This document shows positions 9,368-20,581 of a stretch of 64,000 bases of DNA, piece by piece. This stretch comes from Fluviicola sp. (lineage in GTDB: Bacteria > Bacteroidota > Bacteroidia > Flavobacteriales_D > Crocinitomicaceae). The notes beneath the pieces were generated by a model, which worked only from the letters and a program-made list of their open reading frames with translations, was not told where the DNA came from and made no database searches. A program made the translations under genes and the position numbers. Location of the stretch: positions 5,291 to 69,290 of the forward strand of contig NVXV01000009.1 in NCBI GenBank assembly GCA_002734085.1, given 5' to 3'. Each line of letters starts with the position of its first letter. The stretch's first letter is position 1.

Positions 9368-10657
9368 TTAACTAACAATACTATCATTTGCATCGTCCAA
9401 AATATCATCATCAAACGAATCCAAATAAATCTGTGTAGTCTTTAAATCAGAATGTCCTAAACCTTCAGCAATTACAGAAACGGGTATCATTTTTCTCTTT
9501 GCAATGGTCGCCCATGAATGACGTGCGTAGTAGGAGGTAATCCCCTCTTTAATTCCAGCCTTTTCTCCGATCTGTCGAATTCTTTTGTTGATTCTTTGCC
9601 TTTTTTTGGAATATCGTTTAAACCCAGAAGAAGAAGCTTCATAGCCAATTGGGAATAATAATTCATTATCTTTCTTTTCAGCGATATTATATTTGTTCAG
9701 TATAGCTATTGATTCTGAAGTTAGTTTAATAGAGTATTGTCTACCGTTTTTACTTCTTGTGTAGACCATTCTTCCAGAGATTAATTCTCCGTTTTTATAT
9801 TTTGATTCAATGATTTGTTTTTTCTTGAGTTGAGCAATATCTACTAAATTAATACCCATGTTATTGAACATGAACATGAAGTAATTTCGAGCATCCCAAT
9901 GAGCGGATCGTTCTTTCAATTGAAGCGCTCTTATTTTTGCAATATCCTCCATACGTAAAGCCCGTTTCTTGGTGTTTTTAGCTTTTGGAATCTTATATTT
10001 TGGAAAAGGGTTTAACTCCGCAGGAATTACACCTTCTTGAATGGCTTCTCTGAATAGCGTTTTAATAGGGCGTAAATAAGCGCTGATGGTATTTGGTTTA
10101 TTACCTCTTCCAACACAGTATGCAGTAAAATTTTTAAGGAAGACTAGATCTATTTCAACAAAAAGAATGTCTTCTGTACCTGTAAAACGTTTTAGTGTAT
10201 TGAGACTTGTATTTATTGCAAAAGCATATCCATTCTTATTTGATTCCCTCAATCTTTCAAGTTTGCCTTTTGAATAGTCGACAATAGAGGCAGAGTTTAA
10301 TTTTTTCGAAATAAAACGTTCTCTCTTTCTTTGACTTGTATTATTATTAGAGAGTATTTCAGCTTGAATTCGCTGCTTTAATTCACTAACATCCATCGAA
10401 TCAACTTCAATTTTGTTATTAATGAGGTACATTTCTGCTTTTGAAAGTTGTGATCGTATTTTTGCAGTTATACGCTTGTGATTCGTTATTGATTTGACTT
10501 CTATTGTTGAATCTTTCCAACTGTCATCTTTCACTGAGTAATTCAATGAGATAGTACGGGTTTTAGAGTTGTGATTGATAACCAACACAATTGGAAATGA
10601 TCCATCTTTCTTTTGACTTGCTTTTCTTCTATCTAATTTAACTTTTACTTTTGCCAT
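9368..10657 (-). CDS. Tyrosine recombinase (island integrase)
   Basis: This 429-residue protein has an N-terminal arm-type DNA-binding region (VKVKLDRRKASQKKDG, residues 3-18), a SAM-like core-binding domain (about 110-210) and a C-terminal catalytic domain. The latter ends with YYARHSWAT (the His-x-x-Arg-like box II, near residue 380) and LGHSDLKTTQIYL (the final His and the nucleophilic Tyr near 409). This is the common integrase type of Bacteroidota conjugative and genomic islands. The gene faces away from the tRNA-Arg fragment 140 bp upstream, as expected for an integrase next to its attachment site. It lacks the extra helix of integron integrases as far as can be judged, so it is unlikely to be IntI. 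Confidence 0.92.
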   Translation of the reverse strand: MAKVKVKLDRRKASQKKDGSFPIVLVINHNSKTRTISLNYSVKDDSWKDSTIEVKSITNHKRITAKIRSQLSKAEMYLINNKIEVDSMDVSELKQRIQAEILSNNNTSQRKRERFISKKLNSASIVDYSKGKLERLRESNKNGYAFAINTSLNTLKRFTGTEDILFVEIDLVFLKNFTAYCVGRGNKPNTISAYLRPIKTLFREAIQEGVIPAELNPFPKYKIPKAKNTKKRALRMEDIAKIRALQLKERSAHWDARNYFMFMFNNMGINLVDIAQLKKKQIIESKYKNGELISGRMVYTRSKNGRQYSIKLTSESIAILNKYNIAEKKDNELLFPIGYEASSSGFKRYSKKRQRINKRIRQIGEKAGIKEGITSYYARHSWATIAKRKMIPVSVIAEGLGHSDLKTTQIYLDSFDDDILDDANDSIVS

Positions 10658-13495: not shown

Positions 13496-13534
13496 AGTAA
13501 TTAGGAATTATAGGTCTTCGGAGCAAACAGCAGT

Positions 13535-13645
13535 GCTAAACTAATTCAGCTCTAATGTTTGCACGTCTAAGCCGCCTAAATTTACAATTAAATTTTGAAA
13601 TCGTGATTCATTGTGGCTTTATTTCTAGACTGATTTAGTTACTAA
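13535..13645 (-). repeat. attC-like inverted repeat, copy 1 (diverged)
   Basis: Read on the minus strand, this begins TTAGTAAC and ends GTTTAGC. Its ends can pair imperfectly (AACTAAATCAGTCT with the complement of AGCTGAATTAGTTT). Its middle contains ATTTAATTGTAAATTT, also found in the copies at 17354-17448 and 18276-18410, plus a shared block around GTCTAG and AAGCC. It follows the 100-residue gene and precedes the 217-residue gene. The 100-residue gene has GTTATTAA upstream (14035-14028), one base different from the complement of the repeat's first core. Confidence 0.45.
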
Positions 13646-13706
13646 TTCAATTAAGACGAATATAAAAAGTAAGTTGAGTTTTTTCATTTTTATGTGCTTT
13701 TAATGA

Positions 13707-14009
13707 TTACCGTGGTCCTTTATCATGGTAAGTGCCTGCTTTACCACTTGCAATAGATTCGACTTCAAGAATTGCTGAGCTCCTAAAATGGCCTTTTCCA
13801 CAGTACGTGATAACCGCTACAGGCTTATTGTTTTCATAGATGATATCACCTTTCAAATTATTCTCATCAAAACGGAGTGCATCTTTAATATGATAACCTG
13901 AACCGTAAAGCCACCATGATTTTTTAATTTCATTATTACTGATTCTTTGAGCACAACTAAATAACACAACTAACAAAGACAAAGTCAAATACCTTAAAGA
14001 TAGTTTCAT
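13707..14009 (-). CDS. Small lipoprotein, function unknown
   Basis: The 100-residue protein has a signal peptide with lipobox LFSC (Cys 19). The mature part has about 80 residues and no recognised motif. It is followed by attC-like copy 1 and is preceded by a GTTATTAA core-like site 19 bp upstream of the start. It can be read as the single gene of an integron-type cassette, with the reservations given for the repeat. Confidence 0.55.
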   Translation of the reverse strand: MKLSLRYLTLSLLVVLFSCAQRISNNEIKKSWWLYGSGYHIKDALRFDENNLKGDIIYENNKPVAVITYCGKGHFRSSAILEVESIASGKAGTYHDKGPR

Positions 14010-14046
14010 AATATTTTAGTTCATTAGTTAATAACTATTCGTTTGT

Positions 14047-14856
14047 CTAATTATCACTCTCTAAATCTTTTGCGTAAGCGTTATCTTCTTCATGATTACT
14101 TAACTTTAGAGCTTTTAAAACTACATGTCCAATGACTGGATTGTTTCGGTACTTGATTAGATAGGGCTTTAGTACCATCTTTTGAAAAAGCATTGCTTGA
14201 ATCAAATATTTTTTGTGTTCGTCATCCCAAGTACTGAACTTTGTTGTCATTTTTCCTTGAAATTTTTTATCAGGATTATATTGAGCCAGACATCTAATAG
14301 CTATGATCTGTCGATCTATATTGTCTGAATCGATATTCTCCCAGCAGATCGATTTAAAAGCAGTGTGATCTTCTTGTGATAAGTTGGATATATACATGTT
14401 TTTAATAGGACCATCCTTCAAAGAGACTAAGAAATCGAAAATAGAGGAAAAATATTTTCTATCATTAGTCTGCATTAAGATGTTTGCTATGAACGATTTG
14501 TTTAATATTGGATTTACTGAATTAAGTCTCTCGTTAAGTTGTTCATTATAACTGGTGTCTCCCGCAACATAAATCAGTTGATAAGCGAATAGCCTTTCCA
14601 GTGTGTCATTTGAATAGAATAGCTTTGAATCTACATAATTATAAACTTTACATTTGGATAGGTTCAGTTCTTCATTTTTATAGCCGTATAAAAAAAGATC
14701 TCCAGAAACTTTAAAGTAAGCTTCAGGTTCGATAGAGTCCAAAGAACAAAACGTTTCTATTCGGTTTTCTAAGCGTTCCGGTAAATTACAAGACTGTGCA
14801 TCGCATATGCTAGAAGATGTAATCAAAAAGATAAGTGTTATGAGCGTTGATTTCAT
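14047..14856 (-). CDS. Secreted protein, possibly HEAT-like, function unknown
   Basis: I place the start at 14856 because the protein from there begins with a clear signal peptide (MKSTLITLIFLITSSSICDAQ); an in-frame ATG at 14889 would add 11 residues and overlap the upstream gene. The mature protein is about 250 residues, with helical segments (for example residues 150-230 with IAIRCLAQYNP) that resemble HEAT-type repeats. No enzyme motif is visible. It forms a tight group with the next two upstream genes. Confidence 0.6.
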   Translation of the reverse strand: MKSTLITLIFLITSSSICDAQSCNLPERLENRIETFCSLDSIEPEAYFKVSGDLFLYGYKNEELNLSKCKVYNYVDSKLFYSNDTLERLFAYQLIYVAGDTSYNEQLNERLNSVNPILNKSFIANILMQTNDRKYFSSIFDFLVSLKDGPIKNMYISNLSQEDHTAFKSICWENIDSDNIDRQIIAIRCLAQYNPDKKFQGKMTTKFSTWDDEHKKYLIQAMLFQKMVLKPYLIKYRNNPVIGHVVLKALKLSNHEEDNAYAKDLESDN

Positions 14857-14878
14857 GGGAAAAAGAAGAATGAAAAGT

Positions 14879-15070
14879 TTAGTTCTCATGTGCTTTATTA
14901 TTAATGCTAATTATTAAGAAAACAATTCCAGCAATAAAGAGTCCAATTCCCAAAGATAAACAAATCGTGCTTACTGGATGTCCAAGTTTAGTGGTCCATG
15001 CAAAAGCATTTAATATCCATCCTAAAATAATTGTTAAAATAGAGAGTACTATTTTTACTCCTCTTTTCAT
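14879..15070 (-). CDS. Small two-helix membrane protein
   Basis: The 63-residue protein has two hydrophobic helices (about residues 6-25 and 33-55) and short charged ends. Its start overlaps the end of the DUF2071 gene by 4 bp, so the two are probably translationally coupled. No function is recognised. Confidence 0.5.
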   Translation of the reverse strand: MKRGVKIVLSILTIILGWILNAFAWTTKLGHPVSTICLSLGIGLFIAGIVFLIISINNKAHEN

Positions 15071-15822
15071 ATTCTGCTACTATTTGTAATACATATCATT
15101 CTATTTTTCTTTTTTGCCCAAGCTATAACCTGAACGCCTGTTGAATAGTGTTTTTCATCTGGACTATTATTTAATAGCTTTTCAAATCTTGGATAACTTA
15201 TTTCAAGTTCATTTAGTTGCACTTTATATAACGGCCATTCAATGTGATGAATTTGAAATTCATTAATATATTTCCCTGAGTCCTGAAATAAAGCAAATCT
15301 TTCAACTAGCCAATGATCCAAATCACGTTTTTCTTCAATTTTATCTCCCACAAAGTAAGACATTTTAAAGGAGTCTATCATTTTTCTATTCACGGAATTG
15401 AAACCATTAATTTTTCTTGACATCGTTGAAAACCTATAAGGTAAATCAGATACGCTTTTTGCGATATTACAGGATAGTCTTTTAGCTCCTTCAATGCTTA
15501 AAAAATAGACACCTGATTTGCCATTGTATTTCACATATGTACGAATATTTATTTCTGGAAAGTTTGAAATCAAAGATGCTGATGGCAGAGATTTTGGTCT
15601 TATTTTTTCCATATCAAATGCAACTAAAGAAACCCAAGGCTTACCTTCAAATAAGTCTATTTCAAGATCTGGATGAACTAAATTTGATAATTCATCAAAA
15701 TCAACTTGCCAATGAAGAAAAATTGAATTATTCCATTCCTGATAATACTTCCACTTATCTTGTGATAATGGCCAAGGACGATGATGGGTAATGTTTAATA
15801 TTTCTTTAGTAGTTAACTTCAT
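15067..15822 (-). CDS. DUF2071 (YqjF-like) protein
   Basis: The 251-residue protein matches the DUF2071 pattern: HRPWPLSQDKWKYYQEW near the N-terminus, HWQVDFDELSNLVHPDLEIDLFEGKPWVSLVAF in the first 70 residues (shown here as landmark only in part: HPDLEIDLFEGKPWVSL), then FPEINIRTYV and GVYFLSIEGAKRLS. The family is distantly related to acetoacetate decarboxylase, but its activity is uncharacterised. There is no signal peptide, so it is probably cytoplasmic. It overlaps the following 63-residue membrane protein gene by 4 bp. Confidence 0.75.
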   Translation of the reverse strand: MKLTTKEILNITHHRPWPLSQDKWKYYQEWNNSIFLHWQVDFDELSNLVHPDLEIDLFEGKPWVSLVAFDMEKIRPKSLPSASLISNFPEINIRTYVKYNGKSGVYFLSIEGAKRLSCNIAKSVSDLPYRFSTMSRKINGFNSVNRKMIDSFKMSYFVGDKIEEKRDLDHWLVERFALFQDSGKYINEFQIHHIEWPLYKVQLNELEISYPRFEKLLNNSPDEKHYSTGVQVIAWAKKKNRMICITNSSRI

Positions 15823-15884
15823 TTATTTATTCTATTGTTCAATGTGTTTGTCATAGCTATACCGTGTTGAGCAAGTTGTTTTTC

Positions 15885-16766
15885 TTATATATTATACTCT
15901 TCGGGATTAATTTCAATCTTTTCAAATTGGCCTGAGTCAATTAGAATTTGGTTAATTCTATTAATATCTTCTTGATTCTTTTCTCCAAGGATAAATATCA
16001 TGTCCCAAATATCTTTCGTAATTGTTATTTTTCCGCTAGAGGACTTCAAATGAATCCATATTTCGTCATTCATCCAAACATCAGATATGTCATCAAGTGA
16101 AAATCCATTTTTTCCTAACACGCTAATTAGTTTCTTCATGAAACTATCTGCATTTCCAATTTTTACAAACTCGATCAATTGTTCTTTTGAATTGTATGCG
16201 GGTCTTAGTTTATAACTATAGTTAAGATTTTTTTGAAGACCATTTTTATCAAAAAACTCTAGTTTATAATTGGTAGCTAAACATTCAAAAGTTTCGTCCT
16301 TGAAGAAGAAAATATAATGTCTATTAACATTCTGTTTGTTATTTAATTGAACTACTGGGTCAGGAAGACTTTTATCTAACCCACTTCTTATTTCATAGAA
16401 CTCTCCCCAAGGTAATTCGTTCGGATTTATTCTATATTGTCCAAAGAAATAACCTTTATCATTACATGTATTCAACGAATAAATAGAGCAATTTTTAAAA
16501 GTGATTTTGACTTTATCTCCTTCTATAAATTCATCAAACTGGAAATGATTAACAAGCATTTCTACTACTAAATCATCAACAACAACTTTTAATTGAATCT
16601 CAGGAGATACTGGGTCCGCGTTCCAATCAGTTGTAATTTTTATATAATCAATTTTACTTTCTGGTTTATGGAAGTCGAACCTTTTCTTACGGTTGAATAT
16701 GTTAGTTAACCATTTCAATATTTGGTTTATTTTATGAATTAAAGCGTTCTGATGCTCTTTTATCAC
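15885..16766 (-). CDS. Hypothetical protein, 293 residues
   Basis: No family is recognised. The N-terminal 30 residues are amphipathic and basic (IFNRKKRF), followed by a beta-rich middle with two Cys (NCSIYSLNTC). There is no signal peptide or membrane helix. It stands between spacers of 60-90 bp and has no clear partner. A cytoplasmic immunity-type role is possible from the neighbourhood but is not shown. Confidence 0.55.
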   Translation of the reverse strand: MIKEHQNALIHKINQILKWLTNIFNRKKRFDFHKPESKIDYIKITTDWNADPVSPEIQLKVVVDDLVVEMLVNHFQFDEFIEGDKVKITFKNCSIYSLNTCNDKGYFFGQYRINPNELPWGEFYEIRSGLDKSLPDPVVQLNNKQNVNRHYIFFFKDETFECLATNYKLEFFDKNGLQKNLNYSYKLRPAYNSKEQLIEFVKIGNADSFMKKLISVLGKNGFSLDDISDVWMNDEIWIHLKSSSGKITITKDIWDMIFILGEKNQEDINRINQILIDSGQFEKIEINPEEYNI

Positions 16767-16859
16767 TGCTACTCATAAATTTAGTGAATAATTTCACATA
16801 GTGATTGTCTATGTCTGGTTATTTTGTCATTAGAAATTCTATACTTTTAATTGATACTA

Positions 16860-17351
16860 CTAGTCTTTAGTTAACCAATCCCGAACCTTACGTTCAACCT
16901 GTCGGTTGAGCGGAATAAAAATCGATAGTGAAGAAATAATTATCCCAAAAATTAATACAAGCAATGACGCTGTAATTGAATTATTGATCAGAAACACAAT
17001 AATACTAGGTACTAAGCCTATCAGTACTGTTAAGATCAAAGGTTTGGTAATGTCTGCAGATACCTCAAGATATGAATGTCTATTATTTCCTTTTAATTTG
17101 AGTTGACACTTGATTTTCATCTCTACGTCTTGACCTCTACCTCTCAGGTAAACTGGTATTATCACGCTATATATATTAGAATCAAAATCATCTAAAAGTT
17201 CAGTACCGGGAGATTCAACATGTTTTCTCAGTCTTTCAAACTTATGTTGAAAGTTACGTTTTCCTAGTGATAATTGTGCTATGAGAATTTTCAAGGTAGT
17301 ATTTTGAATGAGTAAAAATGTTCTTTGGACCAGAATTCGAGAGGTATTCAA
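16860..17351 (-). pseudogene. Probable 5'-truncated membrane protein gene
   Basis: The open frame (up to 163 residues) runs from a TTG at 17351, directly after an in-frame TGA, and has no ATG before residue 80. Residues about 100-150 contain two membrane helices (LILTVLIGLVPSIIVFLI and SLLVLIFGIIISSLSIFI). The upstream DNA is an attC-like repeat that has lost its second arm (17354-17448). A deletion or recombination seems to have joined the repeat to the middle of this gene, removing its natural start. It may still be expressed from TTG. Confidence 0.45.
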
Positions 17352-17353
17352 TC

Positions 17354-17448
17354 AGCCAATTTACTTAAACACCTGAATAGTTCAAATTTACAATTAAATT
17401 TCTAAAACGCCGTTCATTGAGGCTTGATTGCTAGACCTGTGTTAGGGG
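17354..17448 (-). repeat. attC-like repeat, copy 2 (one arm lost)
   Basis: On the minus strand it starts CCCCTAAC followed by ACAGGTCTAGCAATCAAGCC, matching copy 3 almost base for base, and continues through the shared ATTTAATTGTAAATTT and CTATTCAGGTGTTTAAG. It lacks the closing GTTAGGG-type core. Its first core (CCCTAAC) is the exact complement of GTTAGGG at 18282-18276, located just upstream of the gene it follows. The last 11 codons of that gene are inside the repeat, which is common for integron cassettes. Confidence 0.6.
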
Positions 17449-18259
17449 CTGTTATTGTTTGATATTTAAAAGACTTGTTTGTTAAGTCAAAACTATCCTC
17501 ATTTCTTTTTCTTGAGAAGTAAGTAAATGTTATAAATCTATCCGAATATTTCCAATTCAAATAAGATATAATACTATCATTGTTGTATAGATAAATCACA
17601 TCTTTATTTCTGAATGGGTGAGAAGTTCCAAAATAAATATTGGGTTTAAAACTTATATACTTTCTAGAGCCAGTAATAGAACCATCTGAGTGAAAAACTA
17701 TTGTATCATTATTTAAAATATCAATGTATTTTCCTGTAAAAATATTTTGAGTGAAGTAGTTAGTTAATCCGTTTCGTATTTGAAAGTGATCAGTAGTATC
17801 AATTTTTATTATTTTATTTTCATCATCAGTCATTCGGCGAAAAGTATATTTTTCATTAAGACTATCTAAGTTCACAGCTTCAAGCCGTGAGTTATCTCTA
17901 TTATAAGAAAGTTGCCATTTTGTTCCCCAATGATTCAGAATACCTAAAGTATCACTTTTTAAATTTCGAATCGTGTCAATCGGTTTCATAATTGAACCAT
18001 AAGATTTTATTAGACTGTCAGATATATCAAGTACTATAGCTGTCCATGATAATTCTTTCATTCTATGTTTTGAAATACTTTTATCAATTATAATACTATC
18101 AATATATTCTGTTAGAATCCATTTCCCTTCAAATTCATAGTTGTTAGAATCATTGACAGGAGTAATTTCTGTATTTCGGGGTGATACAGACTGTTCTGAA
18201 TCAGATGAACAACTCAAGAAAAATGAAATAAAAAATATATGTATTAAGAAATGTTTCAT
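17414..18259 (-). CDS. Lipoprotein, candidate integron-type cassette gene
   Basis: The 281-residue protein has a signal peptide with lipobox FLSC (Cys 17). The mature part contains FEGKWILTEYIDSI near residue 44, like a lipocalin-type domain, and then a second beta-rich segment. Its C-terminus (QTITAPNTGLAIKPQ) is encoded by the attC-like repeat. The gene starts 17 bp after a GTTAGGG core and ends at a CCCTAAC core, so both ends of a cassette can be seen. No exact function is assigned. Confidence 0.6.
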   Translation of the reverse strand: MKHFLIHIFFISFFLSCSSDSEQSVSPRNTEITPVNDSNNYEFEGKWILTEYIDSIIIDKSISKHRMKELSWTAIVLDISDSLIKSYGSIMKPIDTIRNLKSDTLGILNHWGTKWQLSYNRDNSRLEAVNLDSLNEKYTFRRMTDDENKIIKIDTTDHFQIRNGLTNYFTQNIFTGKYIDILNNDTIVFHSDGSITGSRKYISFKPNIYFGTSHPFRNKDVIYLYNNDSIISYLNWKYSDRFITFTYFSRKRNEDSFDLTNKSFKYQTITAPNTGLAIKPQ

Positions 18260-18275
18260 ACTGTTCTATAATTGA

Positions 18276-18410
18276 CCCTAACGTTCTCAGGGCTGGCAAT
18301 CGAGCCGATCTCGCACAACTCACTTCTTAAACACCTGAATAGTTTAAATTTACAATTAAATTTCCAAACCGCCGTTCACTAAGGCTTGATTGCTAGACCT
18401 GTGTTAGCGG
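18276..18410 (-). repeat. attC-like inverted repeat, copy 3 (most complete)
   Basis: Read on the minus strand it begins CCGCTAAC-ACAGGTCTAGCAATCAAGCC and ends GGCTCGATTGCCAGCCCTGAGAAC-GTTAGGG. The two ends pair with interruptions (AGGTCTAGCAATCAAGCC against AGGGCTGGCAATCGAGCC), leaving extra unpaired bases. A core RYYYAAC-like start, imperfect arms and a GTTRRR-like end over 135 bp fit integron attC sites. The first core is the exact 8-base complement of GTTAGCGG at 18990-18983, upstream of the gene that precedes it, as expected for a cassette excised and inserted as a circle. Confidence 0.65.
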
Positions 18411-18491
18411 TAGTTTTTCCTAATCTAGTTAATTATATCCTACTAGCTCTTTAGCATAATAATAAGTTAACTGAATAATATACGAACAGAC

Positions 18492-18977
18492 TTACAGTCT
18501 CTGAAGAATATAGTAATTCTCAAACTTAACAACGGATCGTTTCTCATTCCTTGTTTTCTTTTCAACTAATCTTTCGATAACCATATATTTTTTGTCGAAA
18601 TACATAATTACGAATACCTCTTTTAATTCACCTTCTATTTCTAACTGTACAATTTTGTACTCTTTTGCCTCTTCGTTGTAATTTTTATATAATGCATAAG
18701 GTCTTTCAAATGAACTTGTATCTGTCCTGTAGAACACCTCTTTTTTAGAAAATCCCATAGTGAAAGGAGACTCGAGCTCAGAAGCTTTCTTCATTTTTCT
18801 ATATAAACCAATTACCAGCCATTCTCCAAGAATATCTTCTTTTGGGTTTTCAAATTCTAAAGGTCCTTCAAAAGAATTAGATCTTAAAAACTCACGTATT
18901 GAATCAACTTCGCTGTTCTGGGCAAAACAGAAATGAGTGATTATTAAAATCGAAAAGTAAAGTATAGTTTTCATCAT
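18492..18977 (-). CDS. Small secreted protein, candidate cassette gene
   Basis: The frame stays open upstream to 19019, but the protein from the ATG at 18977 (MMKTILYFSILIITHFCFAQ) begins with a clean signal peptide, and the longer version would run through an inverted repeat. The mature part is about 140 residues, Glu/Lys-rich, with no known motif. The start is 6 bp after GTTAGCGG (18990-18983), and attC-like copy 3 begins 81 bp after the stop. Together they delimit a roughly 700-bp cassette. Confidence 0.6.
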   Translation of the reverse strand: MMKTILYFSILIITHFCFAQNSEVDSIREFLRSNSFEGPLEFENPKEDILGEWLVIGLYRKMKKASELESPFTMGFSKKEVFYRTDTSSFERPYALYKNYNEEAKEYKIVQLEIEGELKEVFVIMYFDKKYMVIERLVEKKTRNEKRSVVKFENYYILQRL

Positions 18978-18982
18978 AATTA

Positions 18983-19060
18983 CCGCTAACTCGTTTATAA
19001 GAAGACAAAAGGTGCACATATCCGAATACAGGTTGCGGATATGTACACCTTTTGTTCGCT
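18983..19060 (-). repeat. attC-like hairpin upstream of 175-residue gene
   Basis: On the minus strand AGCGAAC (19060-19054) is followed by AAAAGGTGTACATATCCG, a spacer CAACCTGTATT, and CGGATATGTGCACCTTTT. The sequence then reaches GTTAGCGG. The two arms form an 18-bp stem with one mismatch. The sequence differs from copies 1-3, but position and ends fit a second attC family. An operator or terminator is the alternative reading. Confidence 0.5.
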
Positions 19061-20275: not shown

Positions 20276-20581
20276 ATGATTAAGCACTTCGAAATAGCGG
20301 CATGTGAACTAGATCTTCAGGAATTGGTCAGTTGTTTAAATAGAATTGAACAACGGCTAGTTAAACTTGAAGAGCAGTCCTCAAAAGAGTCTTCCTCGAC
20401 AAAGAGTTTGGAGGAGTTACTTTCACGTAAAGAAGTTGCTAATTATTTCAAAGTAAACATCTCAACAGTTCGGAACTGGACGAAACAAGGTATCCTTAAG
20501 AAATACGGTGTTGGTGACCGAGTATATTATAAACGTACCGAGATTGAGGAAGTGCTTACTGAAATCAAAGAATCAGAATAA
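20276..20581 (+). CDS. Helix-turn-helix (excisionase/MerR-type) DNA-binding protein
   Basis: The 101-residue protein has an N-terminal heptad segment (LVSCLNRIEQRLVKLEEQ) and a C-terminal HTH of the helix-turn-helix_17/MerR kind: LLSRKEVANYFKVNISTVRNW, then GVGDRVYYKRTEIEEVL. Such proteins are common in Bacteroidota mobile elements, where they act as excisionase-like factors or regulators of a downstream ATPase and mobilisation genes. It precedes two small genes and an ATPase remnant on the same strand, which supports a mobile-element origin. Confidence 0.75.
   Translation: MIKHFEIAACELDLQELVSCLNRIEQRLVKLEEQSSKESSSTKSLEELLSRKEVANYFKVNISTVRNWTKQGILKKYGVGDRVYYKRTEIEEVLTEIKESE

Follow-up and report, generated by a model that had tools for sequence, protein, structure and literature searches.

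The window analysed here, a stretch of 64,000 nucleotides (nt) of Fluviicola sp. contig NVXV01000009.1 (GCA_002734085.1) given in its own coordinates, carries on its minus strand a short row of genes separated by hairpin-forming, attC-like sites. We consider it probable that this row is a fragment, decayed and without an integrase, of an integron-like cassette system extending through the Bacteroidota, whose cassettes would be moved by a tyrosine recombinase devoid of the additional (I2) region of the integron integrase IntI. The sequence-only reading of this stretch had proposed integron-type cassettes, that is, a cluster of attC-like sites without an integrase. This proposal was upheld by the matching of cores, by the folded bottom strand, by further sites in the genome, and by the integrase, attI and arrays found together in relatives. 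Our results support amending it in two respects: the fourth feature noted, a hairpin, fits attI best, and the enzyme that probably belongs to the sites is not a strict IntI, since it is devoid of the I2 region and scores below the IntI cut-off. The word integron here describes the mode of working and not the family membership.

Core sequences match within cassettes

As relatives we used the best 80 of at least 589 integrase matches from a genome_contigs scan, with up to 10 kb kept on each side (the 80 loci). By title, 30 of them belong to Flavobacterium, and the set also includes Pedobacter, Pelobium, Kaistella, Lutibacter, Chitinophaga-labelled sequences and other metagenome-assembled genomes (MAGs) of Bacteroidetes, as well as one Ignavibacteria MAG and one Azoarcus MAG. 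Sites were called with a detector that requires only AAC, a stem, a spacer of 3-7 nt and GTT; in 342,544 nt of shuffled DNA it gave 0 hits at score 34, 1 at 32 and 3 at 30. Among 89 unique pairs of neighbouring sites (107 before collapsing), the mean exact run counted from GTT was 8.55 nt in comparison to 4.18 +/- 0.12 nt after permutation (0 of 20,000 permutations), and 68 of the 89 runs were 9 or 10 nt long. Pairs of attI and first site, taken from the 38 of the 80 loci that have the attI pattern described below and a first site within 4.5 kb, gave a mean run of 8.66 nt against 4.29 +/- 0.20 nt (0 of 20,000). An additional set of 21 pairs, 20 of them from congeneric genomes and one from the Fluviicola genome itself (15 loci, sites scoring at least 34 and less than 6 kb apart, identical pairs collapsed), had a mean run of 7.90 nt against 4.28 +/- 0.30 nt (0 of 20,000), with runs of at least 7 nt in 15 of the 21. 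The two genome sets overlap, and L194 and L104 are identical DNA.

The same holds for the window, where the core matching described by the sequence-only reading was recovered. In cassette 1, GTTAGCGGTA (from 18990 down) agrees with the sequence after the gene in 10 of 10 positions, and in cassette 2, GTTAGGG (18282-18276) agrees with 17447-17441 in an exact run of 7 (8 of 10 positions overall), while the cores differ between the two cassettes, as had also been claimed. Matching cores are the trace that circular cassettes joined at GTT would be expected to leave. The arrays consist, as in integrons, of tandem cassettes with one gene and one attC each and with matching cores. The cassette units have a median length of 815 nt (107 units); 97 of the 107 hold an open reading frame (ORF) of at least 80 amino acids (aa), and in 96 of the 107 the longest ORF is on the strand of the array.

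Arrays in relatives begin next to a recombinase without the I2 region

Downstream of the 80 integrases (331,262 nt) the detector found 155 sites in the orientation of the integrase and 27 in the opposite one, as compared with 4 and 7, respectively, upstream (695,789 nt). There is less sequence downstream (331 kb) than upstream (696 kb), as many contigs stop soon after attI. Contigs L057, L058, L119 and L171 end at the GTT of attI or a few bases past it, as if assemblies broke at the array start, and array length in draft genomes is probably underestimated. Sites were also detected beside 3 of 10 canonical IntI genes (L185, L187 and L188; 1.5-kb flanks, threshold 32).

In the 80 loci, as in integrons, attI stands next to the integrase. 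The pattern TATA(A/T)..AGTT was present at most 260 nt past the integrase in 69 of the 80 loci (67 of 75 when only those offering at least 120 nt are counted), in comparison to 71 of 2640 upstream stretches of 260 nt. In 60 of the 69 the interval between the end of the integrase match and the pattern is 96-111 nt, typically about 107 nt. The pattern was first read by eye from loci of the family and then applied to the 80; at least three of the 69 calls (L134, L151 and L165), retained in the counts, look misplaced. Over 60 nt on either side of GTT, mean identity between loci dropped from 0.81 before it to 0.37 after it, in 65 pairs that were picked for at least 75% identity before GTT; the invariant columns are partly so by construction, and one of these pairs, L173/L064, is identical on both sides. 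A break of homology at GTT is what is predicted if insertion occurs there. The 80 nt before GTT are folded well (mean z -3.1, 42 of 66 below -2), in comparison to control stretches (mean z -0.3, 4 of 53 below -2).

The enzyme itself is a tyrosine recombinase of 345-377 aa, or of 279 aa where the N-terminal extra domain is missing, with Phage_int_SAM_4 and Phage_integrase domains and the motifs of tyrosine recombinases. The HxLRH and C-terminal motifs are invariant and the chain ends in the IntI-like SPFDDL in all 11 aligned rows. However, two intact relatives reach only 208.3 and 215 bits with TIGR02249 (IntI), under its curated cut-off of 265 bits, and the I2 region of about 41 residues is missing: the spacing from KGxxxR to HxLRH is 58-59 aa in the 78 of the 80 loci that have both motifs, as opposed to 100 aa in the canonical L184. 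The alignment to IntI4 skips chain residues 182-246, and the structure model places 17 residues between the helices flanking the I2 position. Overall, the enzyme is as similar to archaeal XerA as to IntI. Two other I2-less recombinases, of 272-274 aa (L065 and L070, from genomes G052 and G071), have CGTTAnnn about 50 nt past the stop codon and group with canonical IntI in the tree (97/95); they are possibly a second I2-less type.

Sites have a conserved anatomy and fold better from the bottom strand

The distance from AAC to GTT is 121 nt in the median (10th-90th percentile 113-124; 193 unique sites). In the commonest register, which comprises 133 sites, stem position 14 is A.C in 109 (T.G on the bottom strand) and position 5 is T.G in 71; in the register used, these two conserved non-Watson-Crick positions appear as 1x1 mismatches or wobbles and not as one-sided bulges, the form of the two extrahelical bases in integron hairpins. 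With symmetric detection, 125 of 165 sites were more stable as the bottom strand and 37 as the top strand, and on the cassette strand there are 310 A.C against 114 G.T. The classical R-box consensus is RYYYAAC / GTTRRRY. Here, RYYYAAC is present in 6 of 155 sites and GTTRRRY in 7 of 153 cores, while GTTR is found in 150 and GTTRNNNGNNA in 110 of the 153.

The loop of the attC-like sites in the Fluviicola genome and in genome G067 retains TAAATTTG, in which we presume to see a likeness to the -7 promoter element of Bacteroidota, and TAnnTTTG occurs in 37 of 193 sites, in comparison to 14.5 +/- 3.1 in shuffles; it may be that certain cassettes supply the gene that follows with a promoter. The arrays of G067 also contain a repeated unit (L093:15298-17772; also in L094, L095, L097 and L103, with related units in L100 and L101) that codes for a tyrosine recombinase of 283 aa and a transposase, the latter presumably IS91-like. 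The unit begins with GTTGAAC, ends with GTTCAAC and a 133-nt hairpin site, and is placed like a cassette, with a core run of 7 in L093. Its recombinase occurs at about a dozen places in G067, and the unit is possibly a self-mobile cassette.

The window holds a short and decayed array

On the minus strand, from 19055 down, an attI-like site is followed by a gene, a complete attC-like site, a second gene, a damaged site, more minus-strand genes and a degenerate copy of the site (Table 1). It largely holds, then, that the window contains a short, decayed cassette array without an integrase. The hairpin at 18983-19060, formerly placed 3' of a gene, in fact lies 5' of the gene at 18492-18977 and fits attI; its fold has a z of -8.1. 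The gene following the damaged site may be a cassette fused to its neighbour through loss of the R' end.

Table 1. Coordinates of the array and its parts in the window
Feature	Coordinates	Strand	Description
attI-like site	18988..19055	-	hairpin 19005-19055, then TATAAACGAGTT (18999-18988; also written TATAAACGA-GTT), whose GTT begins cassette 1; 12-mer identical to that in the attI of L116, L147 and L150, and hairpin of the same layout; first core GTTAGCGGTA
Cassette 1 gene	18492..18977	-	161 aa from ATG at 18977; hydrophobic start; no Pfam match
Complete attC-like site	18276..18410	-	R'' CCGCTAAC (18410-18403), hairpin, R' GTTAGGG (18282-18276)
Cassette 2 gene	17414..18259	-	281 aa; lipoprotein-like start; no Pfam match
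Second attC-like site	17310..17449	-	R'' CCCTAAC retained (17447-17441); R' end lost
Next gene	16860..17351	-	163 aa; TTG start; no Pfam match
Degenerate attC-like copy	13503..13642	-	recognised by covariance model and BLAST similarity

The three related repeats reported earlier were found again with a covariance model, R1, at 18273-18411 (152.5 bits, a match by construction, given that this site was among the six used to train R1), 17310-17449 (106.1 bits) and 13503-13642 (39.3 bits). The 18.3-kb copy folds better than expected by chance on the plus strand, opposite to the genes (z -2.80, 0 of 200 shuffles), and not on the other strand (z -0.30). The folding of the 17.3-kb copy does not exceed that of shuffles (z -0.06 and -0.24), and the degenerate 13.5-kb copy gives z -2.32 and -1.45. 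In the sequence-blind detector the 18.3-kb copy scored 37.6, while shuffles of an 11.5-kb region (n=4) did not exceed 28.6; a coding stretch of the window at 15703-15814 reached 30.2. With two sites about 0.8 kb apart, one of them damaged, and no integrase, the window has the make-up of a cluster of attC sites lacking an integrase (CALIN; at least two attC sites close together), as judged with the covariance model made in this analysis.

A tblastn search of the window with the integrases of three relatives confirmed that no integrase of the cognate kind is present there; it returned only an arm-type tyrosine recombinase and weak noise. This recombinase (9368-10657; Arm-DNA-bind_5 and Phage_int_SAM_5) lies near the end of the array's run of minus-strand genes and, together with an HTH_17 gene at 20276-20581, may mark another mobile element around the array.

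Remnants of further platforms are present in the same genome

By BLAST with the complete copy and by the covariance model, ten related sites were found in the Fluviicola genome, of which three are those of the window. Of the seven elsewhere, three follow one another at C25:563-565 kb, and C25:694 kb, C28:25.7 kb, C3:6.5 kb and C27:24.4 kb have one each. Six of the ten, all complete, served for training of R1. In these six, 92.9% of stem cells pair, in comparison to 20.6-42.9% with slid arms. Both sides have changed in four pairs, as compared with 2.1 in column shuffles, where 32 of 500 attained this number, and none of the 500 shuffles equalled the covariation score.

The search of the complete genome suggested by the sequence-only reading was thus productive as to further sites, and it also gave two pieces of integrase; no canonical IntI over the cut-off was found in this genome, nor an intact I2-less enzyme at E 1e-80. 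One piece, at C28:20020-20328, covers about 102 aa with 58-64% identity to three relatives, and the other, at C25:441 kb, 65-74 aa with 58-70% identity. The latter directly follows an apparent tRNA-Cys gene, as judged by eye (L002:1840-1780, minus strand). Behind each piece, on the same strand, lie attI with GTT, a single gene and its attC-like site, with core agreement in 9 of 9 and 10 of 10 positions. It appears, therefore, that the genome once had at least two platforms, now broken, and the window array looks like a third, whose integrase would have been lost wholly. It is unlikely that the window array is still mobile, given that the genome (listed as 99.89% complete, 36 contigs) yielded no intact cognate integrase.

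Proposed mode of cassette movement and its alternatives

In its intact form, the system would consist of a simple tyrosine recombinase, about 107 nt later an attI (hairpin and TATA..AGTT), and then the array, all on the same strand. The array would be made mostly of single-gene cassettes, each closed by a hairpin site of some 120 nt whose bottom strand gives the better fold, and recombination would take place at the GTT of attI and attC. Each circular cassette would carry its own 6-7 nt after GTT, and for this reason the sequence before the gene would match the sequence after it. The I2-less recombinase would catalyse both insertion and excision by acting on the folded bottom strand, and the window array would derive from such a platform, having since lost its integrase. 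The anatomy of the sites, their co-location and co-orientation, the core matching, the homology break at GTT, the strand asymmetry and the absence of I2 from the adjacent recombinase are read directly from the sequences.

Several observations do not favour this proposal. Cores match poorly in 6 of the 21 pairs and in 14 of the 89 (runs of at most 6), and 5 of the 38 first cassettes have runs of at most 5; such pairs may be explained by missed sites, misplaced attI calls or decay. In the Fluviicola genome, the cores of the C25 array are imperfect (8 of 10 and 9 of 10), and all four sites tested outside arrays, three dispersed ones and the 13.5-kb copy, are devoid of a convincing upstream core (for the latter, the best of 34 GTT tried agreed in 8 of 10 positions). 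The window holds no integrase remnant, and its complete site has non-Watson-Crick positions 5, 8 and 15, as opposed to the conserved 5 and 14. Moreover, the missing domain is held necessary for integron activity in the excerpts of PMC7790495, PMC9668308 and PMC8138268.

The hairpins lie between genes, and some copies in the Fluviicola genome are single and have no matching upstream core, as would be the case for terminators or for a family of dispersed repeats that plays no part in the movement of cassettes. However, cores that differ between and match within cassettes (0 of 20,000 permutations), as well as sites lying on one side of one recombinase gene, make this explanation very improbable, and with very high confidence we regard the sites as those of mobile cassettes. 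It is also improbable, though somewhat less so, that we deal with a canonical integron whose cassettes are moved by a normal IntI encoded elsewhere, the I2-less recombinase being a bystander. Although IntI over the TIGR02249 cut-off is common in the wider phylum (84 of 296 genomes), none was found among 150 genomes of the family or in the Fluviicola genome, and of 198 genomes from the window's class a single one has it; the I2-less enzyme is present in 30 of the 198, none of which is the one with canonical IntI. In addition, the sites cluster straight behind the I2-less gene, and so few as 7 of 153 cores read GTTRRRY. Because of its position and the lack of an alternative in the class, the adjacent I2-less enzyme is, with high confidence, the candidate recombinase of these sites.

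The alternative to be taken most seriously keeps both the cassettes and the enzyme, and assumes Xer-like recombination of double strands at palindromic sites, with no single-strand folding. It would suit an enzyme as close to archaeal XerA as to IntI, the absence of the I2 region that the excerpted literature ties to single-strand use (PMC7790495), and an attI that is palindromic as well. On the other hand, the greater stability of the bottom strand (125 of 165 sites against 37), the excess of A.C over G.T (310 against 114) and the bottom-strand T.G conserved at stem position 14 (109 of 133) do not agree with it, and we regard it as unlikely, yet worth keeping in mind. The asymmetry of the sites suggests that the I2-less enzyme would, on balance, work on single strands. 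We lean, if only slightly, toward a system spread through the phylum in which this recombinase would act on folded single-stranded attC hairpins and attI would be a hairpin too.

Relation to known systems

The papers cited here are represented by excerpts. According to these, integron integrases are held to have become able to use single-stranded attC hairpins through the innovation of the I2 helix, intermediates being lacking (PMC7790495), and the avoidance of a second cleavage is ascribed to the contact of the additional domain with attC (PMC4792948). The extrahelical bases of classical sites have been described (PMC3053210). Bacteroidota are listed among the integron-bearing phyla (PMC8618304, PMC9668308), and intI was reported in the Bacteroidetes/Chlorobi group among genes selected for the additional domain (PMC2426708). 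In the excerpt of PMC8352920 eleven taxon models are named, Bacteroidetes not among them, and the survey in PMC9024848 mentions for Bacteroidetes only In0 elements earlier and then one complete integron, in Salinibacter ruber. In the literature searched, which comprised neither subscription papers nor preprints, no paper describing I2-less integrases with cassette arrays was found.

If our reading is true, I2 is not required for single-strand cassette recombination, and the I2-less lineage would have reached its solution independently or else be left over from the pre-I2 state, for which intermediates have not been reported. A common I2-less system with the cassette logic of integrons would overturn or refine the view of I2, and such platforms make a central question of how integrons work directly testable, by a standard assay in E. 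coli. The picture of integrons in Bacteroidetes would also alter if Flavobacterium and its relatives harbour a large pool of mobile gene cassettes that has been overlooked.

Judged from its sequences, the system appears to work like an integron, yet it does not belong to the IntI family by the two definitions tested, and its sites depart from the classical R-box consensus. A simple tyrosine recombinase subgroup termed 'Integron-like' has been defined (PMC8138268), where the insertion is called essential for integron function; in contrast to our loci, no cassette arrays are described in that excerpt for its insert-less members. With the chromosomal integrons and CALINs of IntI, our system shares the platform with attI by the integrase, arrays of small co-oriented cassettes, integrase-free remnants, hairpin sites of about 120 nt with better folding of the bottom strand, the crossover at GTT and the matching of cores within cassettes. 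It differs from them by an enzyme without the I2 region, an attI that is a hairpin, matching runs of 9-10 nt, cores of the form GTTRNNNGNNA (110 of 153) and not GTTRRRY (7 of 153), and, in the 80 loci as examined here, an integrase that shares the strand of the array. Archaeal XerA and bacterial XerC/XerD have the overall fold and sequence similarity in common with our enzyme. Xer enzymes are known for chromosome dimer resolution, whereas the gene of the enzyme described here adjoins attI and cassette arrays, and its product ends in SPFDDL.

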